A stretch of DNA of 64,000 bases. Source: Chloroflexota bacterium. GTDB lineage: Bacteria; Chloroflexota; Anaerolineae; Anaerolineales; Villigracilaceae. Of the stretch, positions 10,428-63,475 are shown piece by piece. The notes under the pieces were generated by a model. The model was not told the DNA's origin. It worked only from the letters and a program-made list of their open reading frames with translations, and ran no database searches. The DNA is taken from contig JAJYLQ010000016.1 of NCBI GenBank assembly GCA_021787595.1, positions 1 to 64,000 of the forward strand, written 5' to 3'. Every line of letters starts with the position of its first letter. Position 1 is the stretch's first letter. Both the position numbers and the translations under genes were made by a program.

Positions 10428-11165
10428 TCACGCGCTGTCCAAACCATGACGTTTCAACGCGCGAGACACCGTCAAAGCAAAAACGTCCCGCGCTCCCGCG
10501 GCATAAAGCGCCTCGGCGCAGGACGAAAGAGTGGAACCGGTGGTAGCAACATCATCCATCAATAAAATCGTACGATTGATGACTCGCTTGGATTTCGACT
10601 GGAAGGCCTCGCGCACATTCTCGCGGCGTTCCAGCTTTGTCAGCCCGACCTGGGATCGGGTCTCACGGACTCGGCGAAGCGCATCCGCCTCGAAATCAAT
10701 TTTCATTGCCATCGCCAGCGGACGCGCGATCAACGCAACCTGATTATAACCCCGTTCCTGCAGGCGCTTCTGTCCCAGCGGGACGGGGACGATGCAATCC
10801 ACCGGCCACTTCAACGCGGCAACGAAGCCGGATAATTGCGCGGCCAGCGCGTCGCCCAGGCCGAGATCGCGGCGATATTTCAGGCGATGAAGCGCGGGAC
10901 GCACCGGCGCGTCGAACGCGGACCAGGAGCGGAGCGCGCTAAATCGGGGCCGCGCCCGCTGACAGTCCGCGCACAGACCCGGCGTATCTGTCTGGATTCC
11001 GCAAACTTCGCAAAGCGGTTCCGCGAGAGAGACAACGTTTCGCTGGCAGCCGTCGCACCAACGTGAACCGGACCTGCCGCATCCGCCGCAAACCGGGGGA
11101 AAGAGCAGATCCAATCCGCACCAAAATGATCGGTATAAAGAATATGGGATCGGGAATCCAGCCAT
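10428..11165 (-). CDS. comF: ComF family phosphoribosyltransferase-like protein
   Basis: 245 residues. Four Cys pairs at the N-terminus (CGGCG, CDGC, CEVCG, CADC) form the double zinc ribbon of ComF, followed by a type I phosphoribosyltransferase domain with ILLMDDVATTGST. ComF takes part in DNA uptake in competent bacteria; single-copy ComF-like proteins also occur outside competence loci. ATG at 11165 is chosen; a GTG at 11180 is possible. It follows tadC after about 25 bp, so it may share the Tad transcript. Confidence 0.85.
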   Translation of the reverse strand: MAGFPIPYSLYRSFWCGLDLLFPPVCGGCGRSGSRWCDGCQRNVVSLAEPLCEVCGIQTDTPGLCADCQRARPRFSALRSWSAFDAPVRPALHRLKYRRDLGLGDALAAQLSGFVAALKWPVDCIVPVPLGQKRLQERGYNQVALIARPLAMAMKIDFEADALRRVRETRSQVGLTKLERRENVREAFQSKSKRVINRTILLMDDVATTGSTLSSCAEALYAAGARDVFALTVSRALKRHGLDSA

Positions 11166-11190
11166 TGATGAAGCCCCCACAATCGAATAC

Positions 11191-12144
11191 TCAATGCAGC
11201 GCGCCGAGCGTTCTGGAAATTTGAATTCCGGCCGGTCCTAAAAGGATGATGAATATCGAAGGGAAGATCAGCAATGCCAGCGGAACGATCATTTTGATCG
11301 GCGCCTGATGCGCTTCCTCTTCCGCATGCTGGCGGCGTTTGACGCGCATCTGATCCGATTGAATACGCAGGACTTTCGAAAGGCTCACGCCCAGGATCTC
11401 GCTTTGGATGACGGCGGCAACAAAGCTGGTCATCTCCGGGATCCCAATGCGGTCGGCCATGTCGCGCAGCGCGTCACGCCGCGGCTTGCCCAATTGAACC
11501 TCGCGGATGGCGCGCAGCAATGCAAGCGAAAGTTCGTTCTGCCATTTCTCGCTGACCTTCGACATGGCCGCTTCGAAACCCAAGCCCGCCTCCACACAAA
11601 TCGTCAGCAAGTCGAGCGCATCTGGCATGGCCTTGCGGATTTCCTTTTGGCGCGAATTGATTCGGCTTTGCAGCCACAACTGCGGGAAGAAAAAACCTAT
11701 TACCGTGAAAAGCCCAACGACCAGCGTAATCCTTCCAACCGACCACGTTCTGGCCAGGATGCCCACCATCAGGAGCAGGCCGCCAAAGACCAAAGCCACA
11801 ATGAAACGGGAAGCCAGGAATGTGGATGCGTCAATGCGGCCGGGGTTGCCCGCCAGTTCCAGCTTCTTATTCGTATCCTCCAGAACCTTTTGAGGCGTAA
11901 AGCCCGCAGAAAGCTCGCCGATCCGCCGCAAAAAAGGAATCAGCACCCGTTGATTGAATGGCTGCTGCATTTCGATTTGCTCGAGGGAGGAAACCACATC
12001 GCCGCGCTGAGTGGCTTCAGCAAGGCGCGCCATCAACGGATCTTCCTCCTGTGTGGTCTGCGAGGTTCTTAATCCGGCAACGATTAACAGGACGGCCCCC
12101 ACGAACACCACCAATCCAATGATCGCGATGATCATAATATTCAT
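11191..12144 (-). CDS. tadC: TadC-like pilus assembly inner-membrane protein
   Basis: 317 residues with membrane segments near both ends and a central T2SSF domain (CVEAGLGFEAAMSKVSEKW, RDALRDMADRIGIPEM, FVAAVIQSE). This is the second platform protein of the Tad/Flp pilus machine. Start at 12144 has GAGGTG upstream and is 1 nt from the tadB stop. The gene belongs to the locus running from the Flp pilin at 17249 down to here. Confidence 0.88.
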   Translation of the reverse strand: MNIMIIAIIGLVVFVGAVLLIVAGLRTSQTTQEEDPLMARLAEATQRGDVVSSLEQIEMQQPFNQRVLIPFLRRIGELSAGFTPQKVLEDTNKKLELAGNPGRIDASTFLASRFIVALVFGGLLLMVGILARTWSVGRITLVVGLFTVIGFFFPQLWLQSRINSRQKEIRKAMPDALDLLTICVEAGLGFEAAMSKVSEKWQNELSLALLRAIREVQLGKPRRDALRDMADRIGIPEMTSFVAAVIQSEILGVSLSKVLRIQSDQMRVKRRQHAEEEAHQAPIKMIVPLALLIFPSIFIILLGPAGIQISRTLGALH

Positions 12145-12145
12145 A

Positions 12146-13108
12146 CTACACCTCGATATCCGCAATGCGCATCATGATGAAGTAACCAAGGCCGATTAGT
12201 ATGACGACCGCCGCGCCGGCTATTACTGCGCACAATACACCGGCATCCAAAAAGGACATCAGATACTTGGGGTTGAGAAACCACAAAACCACAGTTAGAA
12301 AAATAGGAATCAGTGACAACAGGGTGCCAGAGGCGCGCACCTGGGATGTCAACACGCGGATTTCGCCTTTGATCTTGACACGTTCCCGGATCGTGAAAGA
12401 AATCGTATCCAGGATTTCGGACAAGTTGCCGCCCACTTCACGCTGAACGTTGACAGCCGTTATCACGAAATCAAGGTCATCGCTCGGTATGCGGCGATGA
12501 AGATTATTCAGCGCAGTTTCCATCGGAATGCCAATTTGCATTTCCTGCACGACACGGCGGAATTCCTCGCTTATGGGTGCCGGCAGCTCCTTGCTAACTG
12601 CTTCCATGGCCTGCATGGTCGAGTAGCCAGCGCGCAAACCATTGACCATCAGGTTGAGCATGTCAGCCAGCTGATCGTTAAATCGGTTCAAACGCCGGGA
12701 CTGCTGCCGGCGAACATAGAAGCCGGGCGCGAAAAAGCCCACAACGGCCCCGATGAGGAACGAAATGATGTTTCGTCCGCCGATCAGCCAGGCAAGTCCG
12801 CCGAATGCAGCCACGGCAAAAAAGATCAGCGCAAAGTATTCGCCGACCTTGAACTTTAGATCGGCGCGCGCCAAATCACGTTTGATCTTGTCACCGAATG
12901 AGGTCTGCTCGACGCGTGCAGACACCCAATCGGTCAGGATCGAACGTTGAGCCTCCCGGTCCGCAGGCGCATTGCCTTCCTCGCCCAGGTATTGTCCGAG
13001 GCGCTGCTCTACAAGCGTCCGCTCACTGGATGAGGAAACAATCACGCCGACGATCAACAGCACGATCAGGATAATCCCGCCAATGATGATTATCAGGGTT
13101 AAAGACAT
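12146..13108 (-). CDS. tadB: TadB-like pilus assembly inner-membrane protein
   Basis: 320 residues with an N-terminal membrane helix, a central pair and C-terminal segments, plus a T2SSF domain (MVNGLRAGYSTMQAMEAV, IPMETALNNLHRRIPSDDLDFV). It is the first platform protein of the Tad system and pairs with TadC immediately downstream. AGGAAG lies about 12 nt upstream of the ATG. Confidence 0.88.
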   Translation of the reverse strand: MSLTLIIIIGGIILIVLLIVGVIVSSSSERTLVEQRLGQYLGEEGNAPADREAQRSILTDWVSARVEQTSFGDKIKRDLARADLKFKVGEYFALIFFAVAAFGGLAWLIGGRNIISFLIGAVVGFFAPGFYVRRQQSRRLNRFNDQLADMLNLMVNGLRAGYSTMQAMEAVSKELPAPISEEFRRVVQEMQIGIPMETALNNLHRRIPSDDLDFVITAVNVQREVGGNLSEILDTISFTIRERVKIKGEIRVLTSQVRASGTLLSLIPIFLTVVLWFLNPKYLMSFLDAGVLCAVIAGAAVVILIGLGYFIMMRIADIEV

Positions 13109-13134
13109 GACTTACCGTCTTCCTTTTCTTTCAA

Positions 13135-14574
13135 TTAATACCGGCGGCGTTCGCCAATGCCAAAGATGGACGGCGGAAGGTGAATGCCAGCCGCTTCGAT
13201 CTTATCCATGAATTTAGGGCGCAGGCCCGTGGGCCGCAGGTGTCCTATAATCTGGCCGTTATCTATGCCGGTCTGTTCGAAGACAAAGATATCGGTCATG
13301 GTAATGACATCCCCTTCCATACCGCTTACTTCTGTGATATTGACCACTTTGCGGGTTCCGTCGCGCATACGTGACTGATGAATCACCAAATCAATGGCCG
13401 ATGAAACTTGCTCGCGAATGGCACGCGCCGGAAGGTCCATCCCTGCCATGAGCGTCATGGTCTCAAGGCGGGATAACGTATCGCGGGGACTGTTCGAGTG
13501 CAGGGTTGTCATGGAGCCGTCGTGGCCGGTATTCATGGCCTGCAGCATATCCAGCGCCGCCTCATCGCGAATTTCACCCACGATGATCCGGTCGGGACGC
13601 ATACGGAGTGCGTTAATCACAAGAGCGCGGATCGTGATCTCGCCCCGGCCTTCAATGTTCGACGGACGGGATTCCAATGTCACCACATGTTCCTGGCGCA
13701 GCTGGAGTTCTGCGGCATTTTCAATCGTAACGATACGCTCGTCTCCGGGAATGAAGCTGGAGAGGATGTTTAGAAGTGTGGTCTTGCCCGAACCAGTGCC
13801 TCCAGAAATAACAATGTTTAGGCGGGCTTCCACACAAGCCTTGGCAAATTGCAGGGACTCCGCATTCATGGATCCAAACTGGATCAATTGTTCGACCGTA
13901 ATTGGGTTACGCGCAAATTTTCGGATCGTGAGCACAGGGCCAACAAGTGAAATGGGCGCAATTACAGCATTCACGCGCGAACCATCGGGCAAGCGAGCGT
14001 CAACGTACGGGCTGGCCTCATCAATACGACGGCCAAGCGGGGCCACGATACGATCAATGATGCGAAGAACGTGATCATTATTCTCAAACGTCACCGGCAC
14101 GCGGTGGATCTTGCCCTTGCGCTCGATATAAATATTCTTCGCGCCGTTGACCATGATTTCCGTAATGGTGTCGTCTTCCAACAGAGGCTGAAGCGGACCA
14201 AATCCCAGGATTTCGGCAGAGATCTGTTCGAACAGGCGCGCCCGTTCAGGCCTGGAAAGAACGATATTTTCCTCGGTAAGGATTTGCTCGAAAAGGTCCT
14301 GTATCGTCCGTCGAACCTCATCGGTACGTGTGACATCCATGGACGGATCGAGTTCAGCGAGCAATTTATTCTGGACGCGCGTCTTTAGATCGAAGTAGGA
14401 ACCGGCCTGAGGGGATGTGATTGGGGCGTTGACGCGTCGCGCCTGCAACGAGGAGAGCCGTGAGCTATCTCCCCCTGCGCTGTTATTTTGGCCGCCTCCT
14501 GAAGTCGAAGGAGGCGTGGGAATTTGTTGTCCCTGACCGCCCTGTCCTTGTTCAATACGTTTAAGCAGCGACAT
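13135..14574 (-). CDS. cpaF: CpaF/TadA secretion ATPase
   Basis: 479 residues. Walker A GGTGSGKTTLLN, followed by the Asp box and Walker B region (LRMRPDRIIVGEIRDEAALDML) and the His box (NTGHDGSMTTLHSN). N-terminal about 75 residues are Gln/Gly/Ser-rich and variable. It powers Flp pilin assembly as a hexamer at the membrane. AAGGAG precedes the start; the gene ends 27 bp before tadB. Confidence 0.93.
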   Translation of the reverse strand: MSLLKRIEQGQGGQGQQIPTPPSTSGGGQNNSAGGDSSRLSSLQARRVNAPITSPQAGSYFDLKTRVQNKLLAELDPSMDVTRTDEVRRTIQDLFEQILTEENIVLSRPERARLFEQISAEILGFGPLQPLLEDDTITEIMVNGAKNIYIERKGKIHRVPVTFENNDHVLRIIDRIVAPLGRRIDEASPYVDARLPDGSRVNAVIAPISLVGPVLTIRKFARNPITVEQLIQFGSMNAESLQFAKACVEARLNIVISGGTGSGKTTLLNILSSFIPGDERIVTIENAAELQLRQEHVVTLESRPSNIEGRGEITIRALVINALRMRPDRIIVGEIRDEAALDMLQAMNTGHDGSMTTLHSNSPRDTLSRLETMTLMAGMDLPARAIREQVSSAIDLVIHQSRMRDGTRKVVNITEVSGMEGDVITMTDIFVFEQTGIDNGQIIGHLRPTGLRPKFMDKIEAAGIHLPPSIFGIGERRRY

Positions 14575-14585
14575 GGTCCTTCTCC

Positions 14586-15830
14586 TTAACGCTTACCCGC
14601 TGGAATCTCATTTAAATCGAGTGCAGCCAACTGGGCGCGTACCGCTTCCGCTATACCCAATACACCTCTCGCCACCGGTTGTGCCTTATTATCCAGCATA
14701 AAAGGCACACCACGATTGACCGACGGGATGACGGTACGTTCGTCCATGGGAATCACAACCTTAACCTCTTGTTTAAGGTTCTCGCCCACCTTGTCGGGGG
14801 TGATGGCAATTCGCTTGTCGAATTTATTCATCACAAAGACAATATGTTCCCGTTCGACGCCCATCGTTTGCAACAGGTCAAGGAACAAGCGGGCGTTCTT
14901 GATCGCCGGGATATCCTGGGTGGTTATAAGAACGACAACGTCACTGGCGTCAATGGCTGAAAGGGTGATGTCGGTCAGAATGGGCGAGGTATCTACAACA
15001 ACGTAGGCGTACAATTGGCGAAGGTAACTCAAGACCTTTGAAAACTGGTCTGCCGAAACTTTTTCGGCCTGTTCGGGACGTTGAGGCGCTCCCAGAACGC
15101 GGACACCGGACGCATCGTGTTTGATCATAATGTCTTCGACGATATCCGCATCCAATTCGTCCACGCGGGGGGCAAGATCCAGAATGGTATTCTTACCCTG
15201 CTCGTTCAAGAAGACAGTGATGTCGCCAAATTGCAAATTTCCATCCACCAGCACGGCACGCGTATCCTCATTATGAAGAGCAATCGCAAGATTAACGGCG
15301 AGCGTCGTGCAGCCCGTTCCGCCCTTCGGACTGTAGACCGTCACAATTTTGCCATTGGCCAATCCGAGTGAAGCCTGCGCAAGAACTGGCGAACCCCCCG
15401 GAGCGACGGGAGCCATACGCGCCTGAGAGCTTTTGCTGCGCTCCGCGCGTGACATCTCGCCGGCGCGGCGGACAGCCGAGATCAGCTCGTCGCCGAGGGG
15501 CGGCTTCGTAAGAAAATCACGGGCCCCCGCCAACATGGCGCGGCGCATATAATTTTGGTCACCCTGAACCGATAATATGATTACTTGTATTTGTGGAGAC
15601 TTTTGCCGGATCGCTTCCGTTGCAGCAATACCATCAACATCCGGCATGTTTATGTCCATCAACACGACATCCGGATCAAGCTCCTGCGAAAGCCGGATGC
15701 CCTCCTTGCCGGAGCGGGCCGCGCCGACAACCTCAACATCAGACTCGAACTGCAGCAGCTTCCGCACATTCTCGCGGGTATCAGCAACATCGTCTACTAT
15801 CAGGACGCGAATTTTATCTCCAGCAGCCAT
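14586..15830 (-). CDS. cpaE: response regulator receiver fused to a CpaE/MinD-type ATPase
   Basis: 414 residues. Residues about 7-125 are a full receiver domain (VLIVDDVADTR, phospho-acceptor Asp in VLMDINMPD, Lys in FLTKPP). A linker follows, then a MinD/ParA-like ATPase with the deviant Walker A SPKGGTGCTTLAVN and the VVVDTSP Walker B. CpaE places the Tad machinery in the cell. In many CpaE proteins the receiver is degenerate; here it looks complete, which suggests phosphorelay control of pilus assembly. AAGGAG precedes the ATG. Confidence 0.88.
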   Translation of the reverse strand: MAAGDKIRVLIVDDVADTRENVRKLLQFESDVEVVGAARSGKEGIRLSQELDPDVVLMDINMPDVDGIAATEAIRQKSPQIQVIILSVQGDQNYMRRAMLAGARDFLTKPPLGDELISAVRRAGEMSRAERSKSSQARMAPVAPGGSPVLAQASLGLANGKIVTVYSPKGGTGCTTLAVNLAIALHNEDTRAVLVDGNLQFGDITVFLNEQGKNTILDLAPRVDELDADIVEDIMIKHDASGVRVLGAPQRPEQAEKVSADQFSKVLSYLRQLYAYVVVDTSPILTDITLSAIDASDVVVLITTQDIPAIKNARLFLDLLQTMGVEREHIVFVMNKFDKRIAITPDKVGENLKQEVKVVIPMDERTVIPSVNRGVPFMLDNKAQPVARGVLGIAEAVRAQLAALDLNEIPAGKR

Positions 15831-19051: not shown

Positions 19052-19540
19052 ATGGTCACTCCAGATCAAATCATCATTGAGCTTCAGAAAATCTCCTGGT
19101 TTCGTGAACTCAAACCGGAACACCTGCAAAAGATCGCGGCGATTTCACATCTGCGAAGAGTCGCGGCGAATGAGGTTTTATTCCGCGAAGGCGACAGCGA
19201 AGACAATTTGTATATTGTCATCGAAGGACGCATCGCGCTGAACATCTTCGTTCCCCATCGCGGCAAGGTGCGAATTTACACTGCCGAACCGCTGGACGTA
19301 TTTGGATGGTCGAGCGTCACGCCCATCATCCATCAGCGGACAGCAGGCGCGACCGCCGTGATGGATAGCCTTGTCATTGCCATCCATGCAGAAAAATTAC
19401 GCCAGGCGTGCGATGAAGATCACGATCTTGGCTACGTGGTAATGCGCCGACTCGCGAATATCGTCGCCAGCCGGCTGTTGGTCACACGCCTGCAGCTCCT
19501 CGATATGTTTGCCAACCCGGAGTCACAGAATGTCAAGTAA
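19052..19540 (+). CDS. cyclic nucleotide-binding (Crp-type effector) domain protein
   Basis: 162 residues with a single cNMP-binding beta-roll (LRRVAANEVLFREGDSEDNLYIVIEGRIAL, then VFGWSSV). No helix-turn-helix is present, so it is not a full Crp. Start at 19052 is set by AAGGAG. Its 3' end overlaps the hydB start, so it is part of the hydrogenase operon and probably senses a ligand or redox state for it. Similar proteins are often found at the head of HydBGDA-type operons. Confidence 0.8.
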   Translation: MVTPDQIIIELQKISWFRELKPEHLQKIAAISHLRRVAANEVLFREGDSEDNLYIVIEGRIALNIFVPHRGKVRIYTAEPLDVFGWSSVTPIIHQRTAGATAVMDSLVIAIHAEKLRQACDEDHDLGYVVMRRLANIVASRLLVTRLQLLDMFANPESQNVK

Positions 19541-20654
19541 TCACCGCTCGGAAACCGGAAGCACAATTGCAATCCGAAAACCAGTCTTCAACAGTATCCT
19601 GCGGCGATTGAAGGAGAATGGCTATCAAACGATTGGACCGCGCATCAAAAATGAAACGCTCGTGTATGAGCCGATCGAAAACATTGACGAATTGCCCTGC
19701 AGTTACATCACCGAACAAAAAGCGGGTTCATTCCGATTGACTCAAGCAAGCCATAAACATTACTTCGACGCCATTCCCGGCGCGCAATCGTGGAAACAAT
19801 TTCTGTTCCCGCCGTGCGTGGATCTCTTCACTTTGAGAAAAAATGGCGCCGGATGGGAAACATCGAATTCCAGGATCGATTCGCCAGGTTATGCCTTTAT
19901 TGGCGTGCGCGCTTGCGAACTCGCCGCCATCCAAATTCAGGACAGCATTTTCATGCGGTCTGACTTCACGGATCCGACCTACCGCGAACGACGCCAACGC
20001 GTTTTCATTGTGTCGGTCAACTGCCTCGCCCCTTCCGGGACTTGTTTCTGTGCCTCGATGGGAAGCGGGCCGCGCGTCAAAGACGGCTTCGACTTGAACC
20101 TGACCGAGCTCGACGATGCTTTCCTGTTGACCGTCGGTTCAGAACTGGCGCGCAACCTGCTGGATGGAATCGAGTACGAAGACGCCAGCGCGTTCATGTT
20201 GACGACCGCCGAACACGCCCTCGAACGCGCAGCCCAACAAATGGGACGAACTCTCGACGTCAGTGATCTGCCGAAACTTATCTTGAAGAATCTCGACTCA
20301 TCGCGTTGGAAGGAAATTGGCGAACGTTGTCTGAGTTGCGGCAACTGCACGCAGGTTTGTCCGACTTGTTTTTGTTGGGACGCCGTGGATCAAATGAGTC
20401 TGGACGGCAAAACCACGAGCCGCACGCGCTTCTGGGACTCGTGTTTCAACCCGGGTTTTTCATATTTGGCCGGCGGCAACACACGCCCGACAATTGCGTC
20501 GCGTTATCGCCAGTGGCTGTCGCACAAACTGGGTACGTGGAAAGAACAGCATGGCACGCTTGGATGCGTCGGCTGCGGACGCTGCATCACATGGTGCCCG
20601 GCGGGAATTGATTTGACGGAAGAAGTCGCCGCCCTGCGAAAGGAGGCGCGCTGA
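19530..20654 (+). CDS. hydB: NiFe hydrogenase/sulfhydrogenase beta subunit (4Fe-4S)
   Basis: 374 residues. Two ferredoxin-type clusters are clear: [16 protein letters not shown] (about residue 270) and [16 protein letters not shown] (near the C-terminus). Together they carry electrons between the hydrogenase and the diaphorase module. The start at 19530 overlaps the cNMP-domain gene and has GGAG 8 nt upstream. First structural gene of hydBGDA, a group 3b-like cytoplasmic NAD(P)-coupled NiFe hydrogenase. Confidence 0.88.
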
Positions 20655-21523
20655 TGGCTGCATTTCAGACAACCGCGGTTTCGACGCCGCGCGCAAACCA
20701 CTGGCTCGAGCCGAATTGGGCAGAGATCACAGCCATCGCGAATGAAACATCGGATGTTTCAACTTACTGGTTGAAGTTCGTTGATCCATCCATGCAGGCG
20801 AACTATTCGTTCAAGCCCGGACAATTCAACATGATCCATCTTCCCGGCTTCGGCGAAGCTGCGATTTCGATCAGCTCGGACTCCGGAGAACGCGACAAAA
20901 TTGGACACACGATCCGATTCGTTGGAAACGTTACACGCGCTGTGAGTCGGCTCAAGGTTGGCGACGTGATCGGGTTGCGCGGGCCGTTCGGCACGTCATG
21001 GCCGGTCGAGGAAATGGAGGGCAAGGATATTTTCATCGCCAGCGGCGGCATCGGATTACCTCCCCTGCGCCCCGTGATCTATCACATCATGCGAAACCGT
21101 GAAAAGTACGGCAAGGTCACCCTGCTTTACGGCGCGCGCACGGCCCGTGATTTGATGTATCCATCCGAATATGAAAACTGGCGTCAGGCGGGCATTGACG
21201 TGGAAGTGTCAGTTGACCGCAGCGACGCGAACTGGCCGGGGCGCGTCGGCGTCGTGCCGATGTGGTTCTACCAGTTCCGGATTGATGCGCGCAAAACCGT
21301 CGTCCTCACCTGCGGCCCGGAGATCATGATCCGTTTCGTGATTTTCGAGGCATTGGCGCGGCGCATCCCGCTGGAAAATATCTACGTGTCGCTCGAACGC
21401 AACATGAAATGCGGACAGGGCTCGTGCGGGCACTGTCAGCTTGGACCCTATTTCGTCTGCAAAGACGGGCCCGTCTTCCGGTTCGATGCGCTTCAGCCCT
21501 ACTTCAACCTGGAGGAATTTTGA
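20654..21523 (+). CDS. hydG: NiFe hydrogenase gamma subunit, FAD/NAD(P)-binding diaphorase
   Basis: 289 residues. FAD-binding barrel ([22 protein letters not shown]), NAD(P)-binding domain ([20 protein letters not shown]), and a C-terminal 2Fe-2S motif ([17 protein letters not shown]). It exchanges electrons with NAD(P)H. Starts on a TGATG overlap with hydB, with AAAGGAGG upstream. The same fold occurs in dihydroorotate dehydrogenase electron-transfer subunits, but the context fixes the role here. Confidence 0.9.
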
Positions 21524-22317
21524 TGTCCAGCCACAAACCAACGGTCGCCGTCTACAAATTTTCATCCTGCGATGGATGCCAGCTTTCCATTCTGAACCTG
21601 GAAGATGAATTGCTCGATCTGGCAAACGTGATTGATATTTCATATTTTCTCGAAGCCGCGCGCGCGGAAAAGCCGGGGCCTTACGACATTGCGATTGTCG
21701 AGGGTTCGATCACCACGCCGCATGAACTTGCGCGCATCCAAGAGATACGCAGCGAATCCAAAACATTGATCGCGCTCGGCACGTGCGCGACGACGGGCGG
21801 CATCCAGGCATTACGCAACTTCGCGAACGTTGACGATTTCGCCAACATTGTCTACGCACATCCGGATTATCTGCATTTTCTAAAAACAGCCACGCCGATC
21901 TCGGAACACGTTCAAGTTGATCTGGAACTATGGGGCTGCCCGGTCAATAAAGCGCAGGTCATCGAAGTGATCGTGGCATTGCTGAATAATCGAAAGCCGA
22001 GTCTTCCATCGTACTCGGTTTGCATGGAATGCAAGCGGCGCGGCGCCATCTGCGTTTTGGTTGACAAAGGCATCCCATGCCTCGGCCCCGCGACACAAGC
22101 CGGGTGCGGCGCGCTCTGTCCCGCGAACGGGCGCGGCTGTTACGGATGCTTCGGCCCGTTCCGTGACGGTAACCCACAATCATTATCAACGACGCTTCAA
22201 AGCATCGAGCGTTATCCCGGCGAGACCGCGCGCTTATTCCGCGGTGTCAGCGGATACGCTCCCTCGTTCCGCAAAACAGCCGATGCGATTTCCGCAAACG
22301 TCAAGGAGTCAAAATGA
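21523..22317 (+). CDS. hydD: NiFe hydrogenase small (delta) subunit
   Basis: 264 residues. SSCDGCQLSILNLEDELLDL gives the CxxC of the proximal cluster, GTCATTGG the next ligand, and the C-terminal Cys-rich part (CMECKRRG, CLGP, CGALCPANGRGCYGCFGP) holds further cluster ligands, as in F420/NAD-type group 3 small subunits. There is no Tat signal, so the enzyme is cytoplasmic. TGATG overlap with hydG; GGAGG upstream. Confidence 0.9.
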   Translation: MSSHKPTVAVYKFSSCDGCQLSILNLEDELLDLANVIDISYFLEAARAEKPGPYDIAIVEGSITTPHELARIQEIRSESKTLIALGTCATTGGIQALRNFANVDDFANIVYAHPDYLHFLKTATPISEHVQVDLELWGCPVNKAQVIEVIVALLNNRKPSLPSYSVCMECKRRGAICVLVDKGIPCLGPATQAGCGALCPANGRGCYGCFGPFRDGNPQSLSTTLQSIERYPGETARLFRGVSGYAPSFRKTADAISANVKESK

Positions 22318-23603
22318 CGACAATCGAAGTTCCCGCTTTGGCGCGCGTGGAAGGCGAAGGCGGCTTATTCATCAAACTCGAAAACGGCCAGGCCGTCGAA
22401 ATTCGACTCGACATTTACGAGCCGCCGCGTTTCTTCGAAGGCTTTTTACGCGGCCGCTTTTTGCAGGAAGTTCCAGACATCACCGCGCGCATCTGCGGCA
22501 TTTGCCCGGTGGCTTATCAAATGAGTTCCGCGTTCGCGCTGGAGAAGGCGCTCGGAATCGAAATCTTCCCGCAAGCCCGCGCGCTTCGGCGCTTGATGTA
22601 TTGCGGCGAACACATCGAAAGCCACGCGCTCCACATTTATATGCTGCAGGCTCCCGATTTGCTCGGCAAACAATCCGCGCTGGAACTCGCGGCCGTCGCG
22701 CCGGACATTGTCAAGAACGCGCTGCGACTCAAGAAAATCGGCAATGAAATTTTGAAAGCCATCGGCGGGCGCTCGGTTCATCCCGTCAACGTTTGCGTCG
22801 GCGGGTTTTATCGCTGGCCGGATGCCGCGGCGCTCAAAGCTTTGCTCCCCGATTTGGAATGGGGACTGGACGCCGCGATGGATTCCGTCAAATGGGCCAT
22901 TACGCTTCCTTACCCGGACCTCGAGATTGATTACGAATTCGTGTCGCTTCATCACGCTGACGAATACGCCGTGATCGAAGGCGATGTTTGGTCGAGCAAA
23001 GGAAACAAAGTCTCCATCGCTGACTACGAAACACGTTACATCGAAGAACACGTCAAACATTCCAACGCGCTGCATGGACACACCATGGATGGAAATACAT
23101 ATCTGGTCGGCCCGCTGGCGCGTCTGAATTTGAATCACGAACAATTATCCCCCGCCGCGCAAAAAGCATTGAAAGATTCTGGAATTAAATTGCCACTCAA
23201 GAATCCGTATAAATCTTTGATTGCGCGCGCAATTGAATTAGTCCAGTTTTACGAAGAAGCGATACGATTGGTCGAGGCCTACAAACCGGAAGGACCCGCA
23301 CACGTTGAACTTGAACTAAAAGCCGGCGAAGGCGCGGGCGCGACCGAAGCGCCGCGCGGACTGCTTTATCATCGCTACAAGATTGACGAAAACGGACTCG
23401 TCCAGTTCGCCAGGATCACGCCGCCGACCGCGCAGAACCTGCCGCGCATCGAAGCCGATTTGTTCGCGCTGGCTCCGCAGATTGTCAAGCTGCCGGAGGA
23501 AGAAGCCACGCTGACTGCTGAGCAGCTGGTGCGCGCGTATGATCCATGTATTTCGTGCGCGACACATTTTTTGAAATTGAAAGTGGAAGAGAATAGAGAG
23601 TAG
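22314..23603 (+). CDS. hydA: NiFe hydrogenase large (alpha) subunit
   Basis: 429 residues. The L1 motif RICGICPVAYQMSSAFALE and the L2 motif DPCISCATHF supply the four Cys that bind the NiFe site; both are Cys, with no selenocysteine. A C-terminal tail after the L2 His is expected to be removed by the maturation protease encoded next. ATGA overlap with hydD. Fits group 3b hydrogenase (sulfhydrogenase), which couples H2 and NAD(P)H. Confidence 0.92.
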   Translation: MTTIEVPALARVEGEGGLFIKLENGQAVEIRLDIYEPPRFFEGFLRGRFLQEVPDITARICGICPVAYQMSSAFALEKALGIEIFPQARALRRLMYCGEHIESHALHIYMLQAPDLLGKQSALELAAVAPDIVKNALRLKKIGNEILKAIGGRSVHPVNVCVGGFYRWPDAAALKALLPDLEWGLDAAMDSVKWAITLPYPDLEIDYEFVSLHHADEYAVIEGDVWSSKGNKVSIADYETRYIEEHVKHSNALHGHTMDGNTYLVGPLARLNLNHEQLSPAAQKALKDSGIKLPLKNPYKSLIARAIELVQFYEEAIRLVEAYKPEGPAHVELELKAGEGAGATEAPRGLLYHRYKIDENGLVQFARITPPTAQNLPRIEADLFALAPQIVKLPEEEATLTAEQLVRAYDPCISCATHFLKLKVEENRE

Positions 23604-23660
23604 AGAGCAGGAAGTAGTGAGTAGTGAGTAGAAAGTAGGGAGTAGAAAGTAGGGAGTAGA
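23598..23660. repeat. low-complexity spacer, AGTAGGGAGTAGAA units
   Basis: A tract of degenerate AGTAGGGAGTAG / AGTAGAAAGT units separates hydA from the protease gene. The same kind of short, locally private tandem tract occurs in several other spacers in this window. Confidence 0.65.
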
Positions 23661-24134
23661 ATGAAAATCGCGGTGATTGGCATCGGTCAAAGTTTGCGCG
23701 GCGATGACGGCGCGGGGCTCGAGGCCGTTCGTCAGTGGAAGGAAAACTTTCCTGAAACGGCGAGCCGGCCCGAGGTCCGCGCCGAAGCGAGCGAATTGCC
23801 GGGGCTGGCTTTGATGGATTTGATCCAAGAAAACGATGCCGTCATTTTAGTGGACGCCGTCCGGAGTTCCGCCAAAGCCGGAACCATTCATCACATTGAG
23901 CCGGGAGATTTATCGACGTTTACATCCGATTCCCAATCCGCTCATGGCTGGGGTGTGGCTGAAACGATCCAGCTTGCGCGGCAATTGAATCCCGCGTTGA
24001 AAAATCATCCAATTAAGCTGATTGGAATCGAAGCCGGACAAATGGCGATGGGATCCGGATTGAGTAAACCGGTTCAAAATGCGATGCCGTTGGCATGTTG
24101 TGCCATCCAAACTGAAATAGAAAAACTTCTGTGA
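23661..24134 (+). CDS. hydrogenase maturation protease
   Basis: 157 residues. IGIGQSLRGDDGAGLEAV matches the family N-terminus GxGNxxxxDDG with its nickel-binding Asp, AVILVDAV the second acidic ligand, and SAHGWGV carries the His. It cleaves the C-terminal extension of the large subunit after nickel insertion. It is the last gene of the hyd operon; the hypABCDEF maturation genes are not in the window. Confidence 0.88.
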   Translation: MKIAVIGIGQSLRGDDGAGLEAVRQWKENFPETASRPEVRAEASELPGLALMDLIQENDAVILVDAVRSSAKAGTIHHIEPGDLSTFTSDSQSAHGWGVAETIQLARQLNPALKNHPIKLIGIEAGQMAMGSGLSKPVQNAMPLACCAIQTEIEKLL

Positions 24135-31615: not shown

Positions 31616-33631
<2,016 letters not shown>

Positions 33632-56650: not shown

Positions 56651-56702
56651 AGATTAGCGAACGTAGCGATTGCATCTCAAAGCTGATAAAATTGCCGTGC
56701 CC

Positions 56703-58265
56703 ATGTTGATCTTGATTTCAATCCTGCTTTTATTCGTGACCGCACTGGCTTTGTTGGTTTTGCGAATCACGCGTCCCGAATTTCGTTTTGCGTGGCTGGC
56801 CGCGCTCAGCGGAACCGTCCTTGCGTGGCTCACGGTGTTACTCTGGCAAACGCAGCTTCCCTCCTCCATTACACTTCCAGCATGGCAGCCGGCAAGCCTT
56901 TTTGCGGCCTCGCCCGGATTGTCCGCGGATGGGCTGGCGTGGCCGTACGCATTCGCCCTCGCGACGCTGGCCGCTGCGATTCTGTTAACGTCCTCAGTGC
57001 GCGAGGATTTTCCAAATCCGCTTGTCTGGGCGGTCGAGATTTCTGTGTGCGGCATCGGATTGATGGCGGTGACCGCCGCCAATCCGCTCACGCTGGCTTT
57101 GGTGTGGGCTGCGCTGGACCTATTGGAACTCGTCGTGATGCTGCGCGCCTCCAAGGACTCGGGAACCAGCGAGCGGGCTGTGATCGCCTTTTCGACGCGC
57201 GCTGCCGGGATCATTTTGCTGCTGCTGGCAAATGCGATCGGCGCGGCGGCTGGGAAGCCGGTGGATTTTTCGTCCGCGCCGCCGCAGGCCGGATTGCTCC
57301 TTTTAGCCGCAGCGGGTCTGCGGCTGGGCGTGCTTCCGCTTCATCTGCCCTATCGTTCTGAATCATCCCTGCGGCGCGGGCTTGAAACGATGCTGCGGCT
57401 CACAGCCGCGGCATCGAGCCTGATTCTTCTGGCGCGCATCCCAACCGCAAGTCTCGAATCGCCTGTCACTCCCCTATTGCTGATTCTGTCCGCGGTCGCC
57501 GCTGTGTATGGCGGCTGGATGTGGATGCGCGCGCCGGACGAATTAACCGGCCTTCCGTATTGGATGATCGGTCTGGCGAGTTTGGCAACGGCCTCCGCTT
57601 TATTTGGCAACCCGACCGGCACGGCCAGCTGGGGCATTGCCTTGATTTTGAGCGGCGGCGCACTCTTTGTTTCCTCGCTTCAACAAACCTGGTTGAACCG
57701 CGCGTTATGGATCGGCGCATGGGCATTATCTTCCCTGCCGCTTTCATTGACCGCGGCCGGCTGGCAGAACAACACCAGCGGCTGGGGATTCTTCCTGCCG
57801 CTCTTCCTCACGGCACAAGCCTTCATCATGGCAGGCTTTGTCCGGCATGCGATGCGGCCATCCACGCGCGCTCCATTGTCAACGCAGCCTGTTTGGGCAA
57901 AGATGGTTTATCCGGCAGGCATCGGCCTTTTGCTTTTGATCCAATTCATTCTGGGATTTGCGGGGTGGGACGGCGCGTTCGCGATCGGAGCGATTCCCGC
58001 CGCTATCGCCGCTTCGCTCCTGACCTTGGGCCTGCTGTGGGCCGCGCCGCGTTTTCCTTTTCTGAATCCGGTTCGCGCCCATTGGATTCAGCCGACGGTC
58101 ACATCGCGTCTCGACCAGTTTTATCAAAACCTTTGGGTGTTCTACCGCTGGCTCGGACGTTTGACACAATCCATCTCGAATGTTCTCGAAGGCGACGGCG
58201 GGATCATGTGGACTCTGCTGTTCCTGATCTTCTTCGTCCTGTTGATCACGCAAAGGAAGCCATAA
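56703..58265 (+). CDS. NuoL/M/N-like antiporter-family membrane protein
   Basis: 520 residues with about 13-14 membrane helices and a C-terminal amphipathic part ending in a NuoL-like helix (EGDGGIMWTLLFLIFF). LRLGVLPLHLPYRSE resembles the (K)xxxxPLHxWLP block of ion-pumping subunits, with Arg where Lys is usual and the WLP lost. It starts a three-gene cluster with a HyfE/NuoK-like and another NuoN-like gene. It likely moves H+ or Na+. Start at 56703 is preferred to TTG 56670. Confidence 0.65.
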   Translation: MLILISILLLFVTALALLVLRITRPEFRFAWLAALSGTVLAWLTVLLWQTQLPSSITLPAWQPASLFAASPGLSADGLAWPYAFALATLAAAILLTSSVREDFPNPLVWAVEISVCGIGLMAVTAANPLTLALVWAALDLLELVVMLRASKDSGTSERAVIAFSTRAAGIILLLLANAIGAAAGKPVDFSSAPPQAGLLLLAAAGLRLGVLPLHLPYRSESSLRRGLETMLRLTAAASSLILLARIPTASLESPVTPLLLILSAVAAVYGGWMWMRAPDELTGLPYWMIGLASLATASALFGNPTGTASWGIALILSGGALFVSSLQQTWLNRALWIGAWALSSLPLSLTAAGWQNNTSGWGFFLPLFLTAQAFIMAGFVRHAMRPSTRAPLSTQPVWAKMVYPAGIGLLLLIQFILGFAGWDGAFAIGAIPAAIAASLLTLGLLWAAPRFPFLNPVRAHWIQPTVTSRLDQFYQNLWVFYRWLGRLTQSISNVLEGDGGIMWTLLFLIFFVLLITQRKP

Positions 58266-58868
58266 ATGCTTGCCGTCATCCTTGCATGGATTGCTGTCAT
58301 CCTGTTGCTCGCAACCTCCGCCGGTTTGATTCTCAACAGCGACTGGCGCCTGGATTTGGGTTTGCTCGCCGCGCAATACCTGGGCGCGTTCGTTTTGGCG
58401 GCTCAACATTGGCCGGTCGGCATGGCCGCCGTCAAACTGGTCACCGGCTGGATGGCGACCGCGGCGATTGGAATGACTCTCAATGCGTTCACTTCCCATG
58501 AAGAAAGACCCGAACAGTTTTGGCCGAGAGGCCGCGCATTTCGATTATTCATGGTTGGCATGGTCGTTGTGCTGGCCGCGGCCGCAGCGCCGCGCGTCGA
58601 AACCACAATTCCCGGAATCGGCCTGCCGGTCGTCGCCGGGGGGATCTTATTGATCGGCAATGGACTGCTGCATCTCGGCACCCGGTCGGAGGTCACGCGC
58701 GTGATCTATGCCCTCCTCACCATTCTGGCCGGATTCGAAATCATCTATGCGGGCGTGGAAAGCTCGATCCTGGTCGCCGCATTGCTGGCCGTCATCAATT
58801 TGGGATTGGGATTGGTGGGCGCCTATTTGATCAACGCAGAACTGTCGCCCGAGGAGGAAGCCGCGTGA
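58266..58868 (+). CDS. HyfE/NuoK-like membrane protein
   Basis: 200 residues, about six membrane helices. The second half (GILLIGNGLLHLGTRSEVTRVIYALLTILAGFEIIYAGVESSILVAALLAVINLG) resembles NuoK/HyfE in helix layout. Its ATG directly follows the TAA of the previous gene and its stop overlaps the next GTG start. Context makes it part of an ion-translocating membrane module. Confidence 0.55.
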   Translation: MLAVILAWIAVILLLATSAGLILNSDWRLDLGLLAAQYLGAFVLAAQHWPVGMAAVKLVTGWMATAAIGMTLNAFTSHEERPEQFWPRGRAFRLFMVGMVVVLAAAAAPRVETTIPGIGLPVVAGGILLIGNGLLHLGTRSEVTRVIYALLTILAGFEIIYAGVESSILVAALLAVINLGLGLVGAYLINAELSPEEEAA

Positions 58869-60262
58869 GCGCGCCCACCCTTTGGATTCTGCTTCCCATT
58901 TTGGTGGGGAGTTTTACGCTGCTGCTTTTACGCGAACGCACGGTGGCCGTGATCGGCGGCGGGACTTCGCTGGTTCTGGCGGGCATCGCGCTCATCGTCC
59001 CGATTGATGAAGCGCTGCGCATCGGCCCGCTCTCGCTGAAAATCGCATCCACCGCTTCCATCCTCGGACGCAGTTTTATCCTCCCGCCCACAGACGCGCC
59101 GCTGCTCGTCATCATTTTTGGAATGTGTGCGCTGTGGTTCTTCGGCGCGGAAGCGGCAGGTGTGGCGCTTCGATTGATTCCGCTGGGATTGATCATCACC
59201 GCATTGCTGGTTGCTTCGATTGCCGTGCAGCCTTTTCTATATGCCGCCCTGTTGATCGAACTGGCGGTAATGACCGCTGTGCCGTTACTGTTGCCATCCA
59301 ATCAAAAGCCGGGACGCGGCGTGATCCGTTTTCTGGTTTATCAAACGCTGGCGATGCCGTTCCTTTTGTTTGCCGGATGGCTGCTGGCGGGCGTGGAAGC
59401 CAGCCCCGGCGACCTAGCGCTCACTGTGCAATCCACCAGCATGCTCGGGCTGGGTTTTGTCTTCCTTCTCGCGATCTTTCCACTCTACACATGGATTCCG
59501 CAATTGATGGAGGAATCTTCGCCGTATGCGGTCGGTTTTTTGTTATGGCTTTTGCCGACGATTGCCAGCATCTTCGGGATGAGTTTCCTGGACCGCTATG
59601 CGTGGTTGAGAACATCGCCCGGTGTGCTGGCGGGTCTGCGCGGCATCGGATTGCTGATGCTGATTTCAGGAGGTTTGTGGGCCGCCTTCCAGCGCAAGCT
59701 GGAACGGCTGATGGCCTATACCGCCATCGCGGAAACGGGTTTTATTCTGCTGGCGCTGAGCCTGACTACCGCGGGAAGCCTCGATCTTTTCTTCCTGCTC
59801 ATCATCCCACGCGGCCTCGGTCTCGCCGTCTGGGCATTGGCATTGTCTGTTCTCAAAAAAGAAAATGGGGCGCTCGAATTCTCTTCCGCGCAGGGATTGG
59901 CCCGCGCCTATCCGCTTGCATCCGCGGCGCTGGTGCTTGCCGCGCTTTCAACAGCCGGCTTTCCTTTATTGGCTGGTTTTCCGCCGCGGCTTGCCTTGTG
60001 GCAGGGATTGGCCGGCGAATCGATTGGCACAGCGATATGGTTCCTGGTCGGCATTCTCGGCCTGCTGACCGGAGCCGTCAGGATGATGGCAGTACTGGTG
60101 ATGCAAAAGGAGGAAACGAACTGGGCTCTGAAAGAGAGCTGGATCCAGCGTGGCATGTTGAGCATCGGAATCATCGGACTGTTCCTGCTCGGAATATTTC
60201 CGCAGATCATGCGGCCGTTCCTCGAAAGCCTGCCACTCATGTTCCAGCATCTGGGCCGCTAG
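58865..60262 (+). CDS. NuoN/NuoM-like antiporter-family membrane protein
   Basis: 465 residues, about 13-14 membrane helices. Start is GTG, overlapping the previous stop as GTGA, with GAGGAGG upstream. FPLYTWIPQLMEESSPYAVG matches PLHxWLPDAxxEAP of NuoL/M/N with His changed to Tyr, and the Lys usually found just before it is replaced by hydrophobic residues. LLIELAVMTAVPLL retains a Glu in the helix that carries the essential Glu. The changes suggest altered or lost pumping. Confidence 0.7.
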   Translation: MSAPTLWILLPILVGSFTLLLLRERTVAVIGGGTSLVLAGIALIVPIDEALRIGPLSLKIASTASILGRSFILPPTDAPLLVIIFGMCALWFFGAEAAGVALRLIPLGLIITALLVASIAVQPFLYAALLIELAVMTAVPLLLPSNQKPGRGVIRFLVYQTLAMPFLLFAGWLLAGVEASPGDLALTVQSTSMLGLGFVFLLAIFPLYTWIPQLMEESSPYAVGFLLWLLPTIASIFGMSFLDRYAWLRTSPGVLAGLRGIGLLMLISGGLWAAFQRKLERLMAYTAIAETGFILLALSLTTAGSLDLFFLLIIPRGLGLAVWALALSVLKKENGALEFSSAQGLARAYPLASAALVLAALSTAGFPLLAGFPPRLALWQGLAGESIGTAIWFLVGILGLLTGAVRMMAVLVMQKEETNWALKESWIQRGMLSIGIIGLFLLGIFPQIMRPFLESLPLMFQHLGR

Positions 60263-60309: not shown

Positions 60310-61509
60310 ATGGAATTCGAACAGATCACGAAACGTCTCGAATGGCTGGACGACCAGCAGCGAAAGAATAAAACTGCCATTAGCGACCTGAGCCAGCAGC
60401 TGACTTCGATCGAAACGACCGTCAATGCTCTAAGCAAACAGATCAAGGGTCTCGGCAAGGAGATCGAGGATCTCAGCCCGGCCACGGCGCGTCTGGATCA
60501 ATTCGACCAGATGATGGAAAAACAGCGCGGCGACCTGAACAAGCTGGCCGAGGCTGCGGAAAAACGCGCCCTGCGCCGCGAACAGGAATCCGCCAAGTTG
60601 AATCGTGCCGAGTTGAATGAGATCAACAAATCCATCCTGAAATTAAACGGATTGCTCAAATTCGACGAGATCGAAAAACAGTTCAAGGTCCAGGCACACG
60701 AAGAGCAGCGTCTCAATCTGGCAATCCAGGATATGCGCGCCAAAGTCGAAGAGGTCTTGGAAAAGAGCGAACAGGTAATGCTGGCGCAAAAACCGATTGA
60801 GGAAGCCCGCCGCCAGGATGCCAAACGCCTGGCAGATTTACAGGGCGAATTGGCCGCCGTCCGCAAACGCGCCGACGATGCGCGCGAAAAAGCCGTCTTG
60901 CACACAGACAGCATCCGCAATCTCGAGAACCGCATGGCGGAGCTGCTCGAAACCGAATCGGAACGAAAGGCCGCGCAGACCGCTTTCCTCGATCAACAAG
61001 CCATCGCATTAGTTGAGCGCGACCGCGCCTGGAAGGAATGGCAGGGACAATACGAAATTTTCAGGAAGCAGGCCGAAAACATTCAACTGCAAGTCGCGGC
61101 TCTCGACGATACCATCCGCGCCGCCAAACGCGCCCAGGATGCATACACGGAAATCAATCAAAAAATGGAGCGCCGCACGCTCGAAGTCAGCGAAATGCAA
61201 AGACTGGCGGAGGAGCGCATCCGGCAGGAATGGGTGGCGTTCAAGGCCGACGAACAAAAGCGATGGACGAGCCATTCATTGGCGCAGGAAGAAACCATGC
61301 GCGATCTCCGCAAAGATATTGATAAAGTGGAACAACGCGTCACACAACTCGACGATACATCGCAAACGCTGCAAGATCAGCTTCATCAAACCACAGACGC
61401 AACCGAACACCAGCTGCAGGAATTGATGAACGTTGCCAACGAATGGCTGACAGCCTACGAACGGATCATGGGGCATGCGAAAACGAAAGCAAAAAAGGCG
61501 GCGCGGTAG
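60310..61509 (+). CDS. long coiled-coil protein, unknown function
   Basis: 399 residues, nearly all heptad-patterned helix (charged Glu/Lys/Gln/Arg rich, few prolines), ending in KTKAKKAAR. No signal peptide. GGAGGATTTC precedes the ATG. Similar proteins are annotated as chromosome-partition-like or simply coiled-coil. It lies between the membrane cluster and selB with no clear link. Confidence 0.75.
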   Translation: MEFEQITKRLEWLDDQQRKNKTAISDLSQQLTSIETTVNALSKQIKGLGKEIEDLSPATARLDQFDQMMEKQRGDLNKLAEAAEKRALRREQESAKLNRAELNEINKSILKLNGLLKFDEIEKQFKVQAHEEQRLNLAIQDMRAKVEEVLEKSEQVMLAQKPIEEARRQDAKRLADLQGELAAVRKRADDAREKAVLHTDSIRNLENRMAELLETESERKAAQTAFLDQQAIALVERDRAWKEWQGQYEIFRKQAENIQLQVAALDDTIRAAKRAQDAYTEINQKMERRTLEVSEMQRLAEERIRQEWVAFKADEQKRWTSHSLAQEETMRDLRKDIDKVEQRVTQLDDTSQTLQDQLHQTTDATEHQLQELMNVANEWLTAYERIMGHAKTKAKKAAR

Positions 61510-61579: not shown

Positions 61580-63475
61580 ATGCGTGTCATCGGAACCGCC
61601 GGTCACGTTGACCACGGCAAATCCACATTGATCGAAGCCCTCACCGGCACCCATCCCGACCGCCTAAAGGAAGAACAGGCGCGCGAGATGACCATCGAAC
61701 TCGGCTTCGGCTGGCTCACGCTTCCCGGCGGCGAAGAAGTCGGCATCGTGGATGTTCCCGGCCATCGCGACTTCATCGAAAATATGCTGGCCGGCATCGG
61801 CGGCATCGACGCGGCGCTTTTGGTCGTCGCCGCAGATGAAGGCATCATGCCGCAGACCAAGGAACATCTGGCGATTCTCGATCTGCTGCAAATCCCATCC
61901 GGCTTGATCGTCCTGACAAAAACTGATTTGATCCAGGATAAAGACTGGCTTGACCTCGTCGAAGCGGACATTCGAACCGCGGTCAGGGACACGGTCCTGC
62001 GCGACGCGCCGATCCTGCGCGTCTCAGCCCGGACCCGGAGCGGACTCGACGATCTGAAAGCGACTCTCGGCGAAATCCTTGAACAACAACCCGCGCGGCT
62101 CGACCTGGGCCGCCCGCGCCTTCCCATTGACCGCGTCTTCACCATGAGCGGATTCGGCACAATTGTCACCGGCACATTGAGCGACGGCCATCTTGCAATC
62201 GGCGACGAGATTCAAATCCTGCCATCCGGTTTGAGCGGAAGAATCCGCGGCTTGCAAACGCACAGGAAAAAAGAAGAGACGGCCGTTCCCGGCTCGCGCA
62301 CTGCGGTCAATATTTCAGGAATCGCATCCGAACAAATCCAGCGCGGCGAAGTTTTGATCCATCCCGGCCAATATCAACCCACGCGGCGGCTCGACGCGCG
62401 CTTTCGTTTGCTCCCGGATGTTTCATCCTCACTCAAACACGCCAGCGAAGTAAAAGTTTTTATTGGGACAACAGAAACTATCGCGCGGCTTCGCTTGCTC
62501 GACACAGAAGAACTCGCACCCGGCAAGGAAGGCTGGATCCAACTCGAATTGCGCGATCCGGTGGTCAGCGTGCGCGGCGACCGATATATTTTGCGCCGCC
62601 CGTCGCCGGGTGAAACGTTGGGCGGCGGAACCATTGTAGATGCGCAGCCCAAAGACCGTCATAAACGATTCGACGAAAATGTTCTGAAGTCACTGGCCGC
62701 GCTGGCGCAAGGTTCGCCCGCGGACGTTTTGCTCGAAGTTGCGCTGGCGCTCGAAGCCGCGCCGTTGAAAGAAATCGTGGCGCGTTCGCACTTGGAATCA
62801 AAACAAGCTGAACAAGCCATCCGTGAATTATTTGATTCGAATCAACTTATCGCATTGGAAGATGGGCAATTGAATCCATCCAGCGAATCTTTGGTAATGG
62901 CCTCGCCGCGCTGGAATGATCTGCGGACAAAAACAGAAGGATTGATTCGCAGCTATCACGAACAATTTCCGCTTCGACGCGGGATGCCGCGCGAAGAACT
63001 CAAGAGCAGACTCAAACTATCAACGCGTATATTCAATGCGTTTGTCACGCAACTCGCAAAACGCAACTTGCTCAATGAGTTGAGCAATGTCGCGGCTATG
63101 CCCGGGCACGAAATCAAATTCGATGACGGCCAGCAGGCCAAAGTCCAGGCCCTGATGCGAAAGTTCGCGCAAAATCCGTATTCGCCGCCAGGCGTCAAGG
63201 AATGTCAAACGGAAGCCGACGAAGAAATCGTCAGTGCATTGATCGAATTGCATGAACTCACCGCCGTTTCGCCGGATGTGATTTTCCGAAAACAGGATTA
63301 TGATTCAATGGTCGCCCAGGTGCGCGCGGCGATTCAGAAAAATGGAAAGATCACGCTGGCTGAAGTGCGCGATCTATTCGACACCAGCCGCAAGTACGCG
63401 CAGGCTTTGCTCGAACACCTCGACGCCATCGGCATGACGACGCGCGAGGGCGATTTCAGAAAATTACGAATGTAG
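61580..63475 (+). CDS. selB: selenocysteine-specific elongation factor SelB
   Basis: 631 residues. GTPase: GTAGHVDHGKSTLIEAL (G1), DVPGHRDFIENML (G3), LTKTD (G4). Then translation barrel domains II and III, and a C-terminal half of winged-helix repeats that bind the SECIS element. It delivers Sec-tRNA to UGA codons. The stop TAG is the first part of a 60-bp repeat element. selA, selC and selD are not in the window, nor is a visible selenoprotein. Confidence 0.93.
   Translation: MRVIGTAGHVDHGKSTLIEALTGTHPDRLKEEQAREMTIELGFGWLTLPGGEEVGIVDVPGHRDFIENMLAGIGGIDAALLVVAADEGIMPQTKEHLAILDLLQIPSGLIVLTKTDLIQDKDWLDLVEADIRTAVRDTVLRDAPILRVSARTRSGLDDLKATLGEILEQQPARLDLGRPRLPIDRVFTMSGFGTIVTGTLSDGHLAIGDEIQILPSGLSGRIRGLQTHRKKEETAVPGSRTAVNISGIASEQIQRGEVLIHPGQYQPTRRLDARFRLLPDVSSSLKHASEVKVFIGTTETIARLRLLDTEELAPGKEGWIQLELRDPVVSVRGDRYILRRPSPGETLGGGTIVDAQPKDRHKRFDENVLKSLAALAQGSPADVLLEVALALEAAPLKEIVARSHLESKQAEQAIRELFDSNQLIALEDGQLNPSSESLVMASPRWNDLRTKTEGLIRSYHEQFPLRRGMPREELKSRLKLSTRIFNAFVTQLAKRNLLNELSNVAAMPGHEIKFDDGQQAKVQALMRKFAQNPYSPPGVKECQTEADEEIVSALIELHELTAVSPDVIFRKQDYDSMVAQVRAAIQKNGKITLAEVRDLFDTSRKYAQALLEHLDAIGMTTREGDFRKLRM

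Follow-up and report, generated by a model that had tools for sequence, protein, structure and literature searches.

What can a membrane arm resembling that of complex I do when no electron-transfer subunits are encoded beside it? The question is posed by three genes, here called A, B and C, at positions 56703 to 60262 of a 64,000-nucleotide stretch of DNA (the window), which lies on contig C32 of a Chloroflexota genome of 4.08 Mb that is 99.6% complete. A preliminary description had called them an isolated three-gene antiporter-like module, and both the isolation and the coordinates proved right: the genes directly beside the triplet in the window include none for redox or antiporter proteins (nuo, mrp, hyf or ech). 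The nearest redox genes, those of a soluble [NiFe] hydrogenase operon, are about 33 kb distant, and two further antiporter-subunit loci of the genome lie on contigs C36 and C41, not on the window contig. The answer we favor, with a probability of roughly 0.45, is that A, B and C form the membrane arm of a compact relative of the group 4 [NiFe] hydrogenases, a complex that is spread over several Chloroflexota classes, and that in the lineage of the window, where the arm occurs without redox subunits, it would transport ions independently of redox chemistry.

The three genes, all on the forward strand, are a tight operon. Gene A (56703-58265; 520 aa) encodes a NuoL/HyfB-like membrane protein with about 14 transmembrane (TM) helices followed by a C-terminal horizontal helix and a last TM helix; we place its start at the ATG at 56703, the in-frame GTG at 56697 and TTG at 56670 being possible alternatives. 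Its stop directly abuts the ATG of gene B (58266-58868; 200 aa), a HyfE/MbhD-like membrane protein with conserved W27-R28, K57, R93, E158 and E165. Gene C (58865-60262; 465 aa), NuoN/M/HyfF-like, begins with a GTG inside the end of B, the overlap being 4 nt and the start preceded by GAGGAGG. In comparison with the nearest species, the ratio of nonsynonymous to synonymous substitution rates (dN/dS) was about 0.12 for A, 0.14 for B and 0.07 for C, indicating purifying selection.

Taken singly, only C matches PF00361 (68.7 bits; best NCBIfam model NuoN), and A and B have no Pfam or NCBIfam match. We built family profiles from class-wide orthologues, with which A matched ND5/NuoM/NuoL chains (E 7e-13) and C matched MBS, NuoN and MrpD chains (E 2.5e-30). 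With hhalign, C was clearly related to HyfF (P 6e-16) and A weakly to HyfB (P 0.0012). The matches of B were weak as well: to MbhD (E 0.0015), which its N-terminal half resembles, and to a HyfE profile that combined the E. coli protein with 18 homologues from Chloroflexota, 19 sequences in all (P 5e-4 over 175 co-linear columns; reversed control 0.67). A direct comparison of B with NuoK was not significant (P 0.35), the likeness being limited to a G-F/I-E motif. AlphaFold (AF2) models had a mean predicted confidence (pLDDT) of 82.5 for A and 91.5 for C. The model of A was superimposed on the complex I L chain with Z 33.6 and a root-mean-square deviation (rmsd) of 3.8 over 472 residues, its alignment to NuoL being co-linear and reaching through the C-terminal horizontal-helix region; that of C agreed with a cyanobacterial NDH-1 NuoN-type chain (Z 39.8, rmsd 2.8, 447 residues). 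Profiles and fold thus uphold the proposed arrangement of two NuoL/M/N-like proteins flanking a HyfE-like one, with a weak match for the latter, and we are highly confident that A is NuoL-like, C NuoN/M-like and B a remote relative of HyfE/MbhD.

Profile searches of genomes across the phylum Chloroflexota found the module in about 30 families of Anaerolineae, at 90 loci in total. In all but one of these B and C are neighbors (89 of 90), and A lies upstream at 81; none has a large-subunit, small-subunit or NuoH-like gene next to the triplet. Among the good genomes of the order, 67 of 70 contain C, in a single copy each. In four genomes of family f6 that we tested (G046, G104, G143 and G232), A was present at another locus; a loss of A was therefore rejected, and the three genes are retained together in these genomes despite the broken operon. 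At one locus (L130, 9717-10901), B and C, which overlap elsewhere, are separated by about 1.2 kb.

Four genomes that are 95-99% complete (G247, G550, G633 and G647, with the triplet at loci L133, L139, L140 and L141) hold an intact A-B-C set but, by profile search, no large subunit of complex I or group 4 hydrogenases (NuoD/HycE; PF00346); each has at most one PF00361 gene, which is C, and they apparently lack respiratory complex I. One of them, G247, is a single contig, 99% complete, in which no NiFe hydrogenase was found. The module thus needs neither complex I nor a NiFe hydrogenase. These genomes led us to reject the triplet as a split nuo fragment, and at the 90 loci it is not tied to neighboring nuo or mrp genes as a split piece would be. 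They also speak against the earlier suggestion of a coupling unit for the soluble hydrogenase: G247 rules out an obligatory partnership with that enzyme.

A phylum scan with C (E <= 1e-60) had suggested restriction to the class, which was overturned by the profile of B: at a cut-off of 1e-6 it matched 109 of 400 Chloroflexota genomes, other classes included. In Chloroflexia, homologues of A-B-C come after a large-subunit-like protein of about 365 aa, D (PF00346 E 1e-30 to 6e-39); downstream there may be genes for a HyfI/NuoB-like small subunit (I) and a NuoH-like protein (H), depending on the genome. The assignment of these homologues was based on the profiles of B (E ~1e-20) and C and on gene order, the Chloroflexia A proteins reaching only 25 to 76 bits, a low score, with the profile of A or C. 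The putative Roseiflexus genome has the order D-A-B-C-I-H and a large subunit in which both [NiFe] ligand motifs are present, RICGEC and, at the C terminus, CVAC. The genome putatively named Chloroflexus aurantiacus has D-A-B-C-H; the Chloroflexus large subunit keeps both CxxC motifs and the small subunit is missing. Putative Herpetosiphon genomes have D-A-B-C; they have neither small-subunit nor NuoH-like gene, and their large subunit is without the first CxxC. The other Chloroflexia genomes are putatively those of C. aggregans, Roseiflexus RS-1 and Herpetosiphon. The putative C. aurantiacus locus (L214, 5017-11034) is a compact operon of large subunit, A, B, C and NuoH-like protein, then an ABC transporter, and apparently encodes a [NiFe]-type enzyme without Fe-S subunit. 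Two complex I clusters are listed in the C. aurantiacus genome paper, whose consulted passages make no mention of the D-A-B-C-H operon.

The Chloroflexia loci support the suggestion that the triplet could be the membrane arm of an unusual complex, since there it follows a [NiFe]/NuoD-like large subunit and precedes, variably, HyfI-like and NuoH-like genes. The gene set and order, NuoL-like, HyfE-like and NuoN-like, are shared with Hyf-type group 4 [NiFe] hydrogenases and Ehr complexes, and the triplet comprises HyfB-, HyfE- and HyfF-like membrane subunits, the matches of A and B being weak. In Chloroflexia the homologues have beside them a NuoH-like anchor and two catalytic subunits, the large one with the [NiFe] CxxC motifs and the small one with CxxC; the class represented by the window differs in having neither redox nor anchor subunits. 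At the window and the 90 class loci, group 4 catalytic subunits and a NuoH/HyfC anchor were absent, and they were seen at Chloroflexia-type loci only. In a tree of C, all loci with a large subunit fall into one clade, apart from the Anaerolineae proteins and from Nuo/Hyf.

Could the Anaerolineae arm serve redox subunits encoded elsewhere in the genome, as part of an unlinked hydrogenase-like or complex I-like enzyme? The HyfG-like, HyfI-like and NuoH-like genes next to the Chloroflexia homologues would fit this, as would a nuoB-nuoCD-nuoI cluster elsewhere in the window genome, but the four triplet-bearing genomes without PF00346 speak against it, and the cluster better fits the catalytic part missing from a nuoHJKLMMN locus on contig C36; we consider such an enzyme improbable. 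The cluster itself (L246, 6581-9610, G000:C50; also L247, L248, L251 and L252) is an orphan without membrane subunits, is conserved in the order and probably supplies the catalytic half that goes with the nuoHJKLMMN genes of the other contig. As a redox half of the triplet it was rejected on this ground and because it is missing in triplet-bearing genomes.

To compare the residues that carry protons in related subunits, 76 orthologues of A and 88 of C were aligned with the E. coli proteins NuoL/M/N and HyfB/D/F and the genome's own Nuo proteins, and the expected residues at the E. coli reference positions were verified in the same run. As the preliminary description had noticed, the K...PLHxWLP block is altered in both large proteins. 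In A, the motif LRLGVLPLH places an Arg where Lys is usual: Arg207 in TM7 (codon 57321-57323; K229 of E. coli NuoL) is Arg in 76/76 orthologues. The TM5 Glu is present in none of the 76, and three residues beyond the lost position stands a new, family-specific acidic residue, Asp139 (codon 57117-57119; Asp in 74/76, where the references have Ser, Leu, Gly, Thr or Val). The lysines of TM8, TM10, TM11 and TM12 are lost too, the TM8 column being uncertain because the preceding loop varies in length. In C, Leu201 (TM7, codon 59465-59467) takes the Lys place of the FPLYTWIP block; Lys occurs in 0/88 orthologues, and Leu, Trp and Met in 64, 14 and 4. C has no conserved TM8 Lys and mostly Gly at the TM10 Lys site. 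It has charges of its own at Glu290 in TM10 (codon 59732-59734; Asp or Glu in 80/86, His, Gln or Asn in Nuo/Hyf), Arg316 in TM11 (59810-59812; Arg in 84/88, His or Tyr in Nuo/Hyf) and Arg375 in TM12 (59987-59989; Arg in 68, His in 9 and Lys in 6 of 88, Lys or Glu in Nuo/Hyf). In B, K57 is kept in 72/89, and Asp or Glu occupies the positions of E158 and E165 in 76/89 and 80/89, respectively.

Neither A nor C has the full set of TM5 Glu, TM7 Lys, TM8 Lys/His and TM12 Lys/Glu of complex I and Mrp subunits, and Arg and shifted Asp/Glu systematically take the place of the canonical Glu-Lys-Lys-Lys proton relay. These substitutions are conserved and are not decay. HyfB, HyfD and HyfF retain the relay residues lost here. 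The Chloroflexia proteins also mostly lack them, TM7 having an Arg in C and being uncharged in A; two A homologues (L222, 8785-10788; L226, 8755-10560) keep the TM5 Glu and TM7 Lys, not kept in the corresponding C, and are possible intermediates. Separately, the second NuoM-like subunit of the window genome (L035, 15852-17408) has Leu for the TM7 Lys and retains the TM8 Lys.

The altered residues bear on two further explanations. The triplet could be a canonical cation/proton antiporter of Mrp or NuoL/M/N type in which Arg stands in for Lys: the fold is the same, A is positive at TM7, and C has Arg, Lys or His at TM12 in 83/88. We find this hard to accept, because C is uncharged at TM7 in every Anaerolineae orthologue, both proteins lack the TM8 and TM10/11 lysines, A lacks the TM5 Glu, and the remaining Mrp subunits are not beside the triplet. 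Of the proposed stand-alone antiporter, then, the stand-alone part is supported in the class represented by the window (90 loci without redox or anchor genes and four genomes without NuoD/HycE), as is the fold, and the canonical proton-carrying residues are gone. Missing redox subunits, together with the graded Chloroflexia series of fewer subunits and lost metal motifs, could also suggest that the triplet is functionless, either a split nuo piece or the decaying rest of a hydrogenase since lost, but dN/dS values of 0.07-0.14, a single copy in 67 of 70 good genomes and new residues fixed across about 30 families make this very improbable.

With neither electron-transfer partners nor proton-carrying lysines, A, B and C probably do a different transport or scaffold job, and redox-independent ion transport via a rewired charge network is the most likely one. 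By analogy with complex I, Mrp and MBH (PMC7419157, PMC9568556, PMC11228991), A and C would be adjacent in a row that ends in B and is braced by the C-terminal horizontal helix of A, as in complex I and Mrp. Ions might pass independently of redox chemistry, most probably between B and C, where B has the protonatable residues K57, E158 and E165 and C often the TM5 Glu; for Mrp, an ion path at the MrpC/MrpD interface to which the TM5 Glu belongs has been described (PMC7419157). Within A and C, the Asp-Arg and Asp/Glu-Arg sites, for which we predict the pairings D139-R207 in A and E290-R316 in C, would be fixed charges that hold or gate the path and do not relay protons. Arginine is rarely deprotonated, so the substituted sites are unlikely to act as relays. 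We offer transport at the B-C interface with fixed-charge sites in A and C as a tentative model, held slightly less firmly than the membrane-arm reading as a whole.

Several observations weigh against that reading. The assignment of B depends on weak profile scores, and the model of A is least confident at 211-222, beside R207. Only 58/88 orthologues of C retain the TM5 Glu, and the Chloroflexia proteins hardly ever do, which means that ion passage through it at the interface would not be general. The tree of C does not distinguish a loss of redox subunits in Anaerolineae from their acquisition in Chloroflexia, and a scaffold with no transport activity would account for the missing relay residues just as well. 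In the main rival view, the triplet could be a membrane scaffold or energized anchor that serves a soluble, non-redox protein from another locus in the way DabB serves DabA. Antiporter-like proteins have been recruited in that way in DAB2 (PMC13144422), a structural role would be in keeping with relay residues being lost from A as well as C, and one candidate partner is a coiled-coil protein whose gene comes after C in most of 36 loci from 11 families. This gene is, however, seldom beside the triplet outside the order, no further recurrent neighbor was found at the loci examined, and the lysines of DabB are kept and required (PMC13144422); on balance we regard a scaffold as rather unlikely, and less so than the other alternatives.

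Returning to the membrane arm, a comparison with known systems shows the fold of the Mrp and complex I arms and the subunits of a Hyf-type arm, without the redox subunits and relay residues that define those systems. With the complex I arm (NuoL, M, N, J and K) it shares the antiporter-subunit fold (PF00361) of A and C, and A has the NuoL-type C-terminal helix region; it differs in lacking NuoH and catalytic subunits (no NuoB/CD/I or NuoH gene adjoins it at the 90 loci), in its altered residues and in persisting in genomes free of complex I. Mrp (CPA3) is likewise a redox-free antiporter-like module, and the N-terminal half of B resembles MbhD, itself a relative of the MrpA C-terminal domain, but Mrp has seven genes to the three here, and the triplet has no MrpB/E/F/G neighbors and no Lys relay; in place of an MrpA-G set it holds A, B and C alone, with no recurrent further membrane neighbor. 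In DAB2/MpsAB, the NuoL-like DabB also operates outside complex I, but DabB retains Lys235 and other relay residues, which are needed for activity (PMC13144422). DabA (DUF2309) is neither among the genes adjoining the triplet in the window nor a recurrent neighbor, no genome-wide search having been run. The triplet is best called a variant antiporter-type module related to the group 4-like hydrogenase complexes of Chloroflexota. Searches of the open-access literature turned up no description of it, a weak indication that it is new.

Proton pumping by complex I is held to center on the lysines of NuoL/M/N, and a widespread, strongly conserved set of the same folds that lacks these lysines and any redox partner tests which parts of the fold serve pumping and which structure. 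The Chloroflexia series runs from a full hydrogenase-like operon down to the arm by itself and may document how the redox-driven complex is connected with the redox-free module; a version of the module occurs in culturable species such as Chloroflexus aurantiacus. More speculatively, and with less confidence than in the interface model, the triplet may represent a phylum-wide complex freed from electron transfer, near-universal in the order, with Arg and Asp/Glu instead of a lysine wire, that acts as a new ion transporter or a sensor of membrane potential.

Two genes recur downstream of the triplet, as a survey of conserved neighbors in other genomes revealed. The coiled-coil gene (60310-61509, forward strand; 399 aa) is conserved in the order, being found at 36 of about 90 loci in 11 families and usually no more than 150 bp from C, and selB (61580-63475, forward strand) at 33 loci, also in 11 families. 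No other recurrent neighbor, and no further membrane gene among them, was seen across the roughly 90 loci. At the f55 locus the coiled-coil gene accompanies selB and not A-B-C. The coiled-coil gene is linked to the triplet and may be a member of the system; selB is probably merely linked. The pair was rejected as functional partners, since the linkage is limited to 11 families and they rarely accompany the triplet outside the order.

Elsewhere in the window, the soluble [NiFe] hydrogenase operon (19509-24131, forward strand) encodes a 4Fe-4S protein, an NAD-binding reductase, the small and large subunits and a HycI protease, and probably belongs to group 3b. On the reverse strand, genes of a Tad/type II secretion-like pilus (two T2SSF, T2SSE and a ParA with a response regulator domain) occupy 10431-15830, and a SufB gene at 31619-33631 is split by an intein, with a PF14890 splicing domain between the SufB halves.

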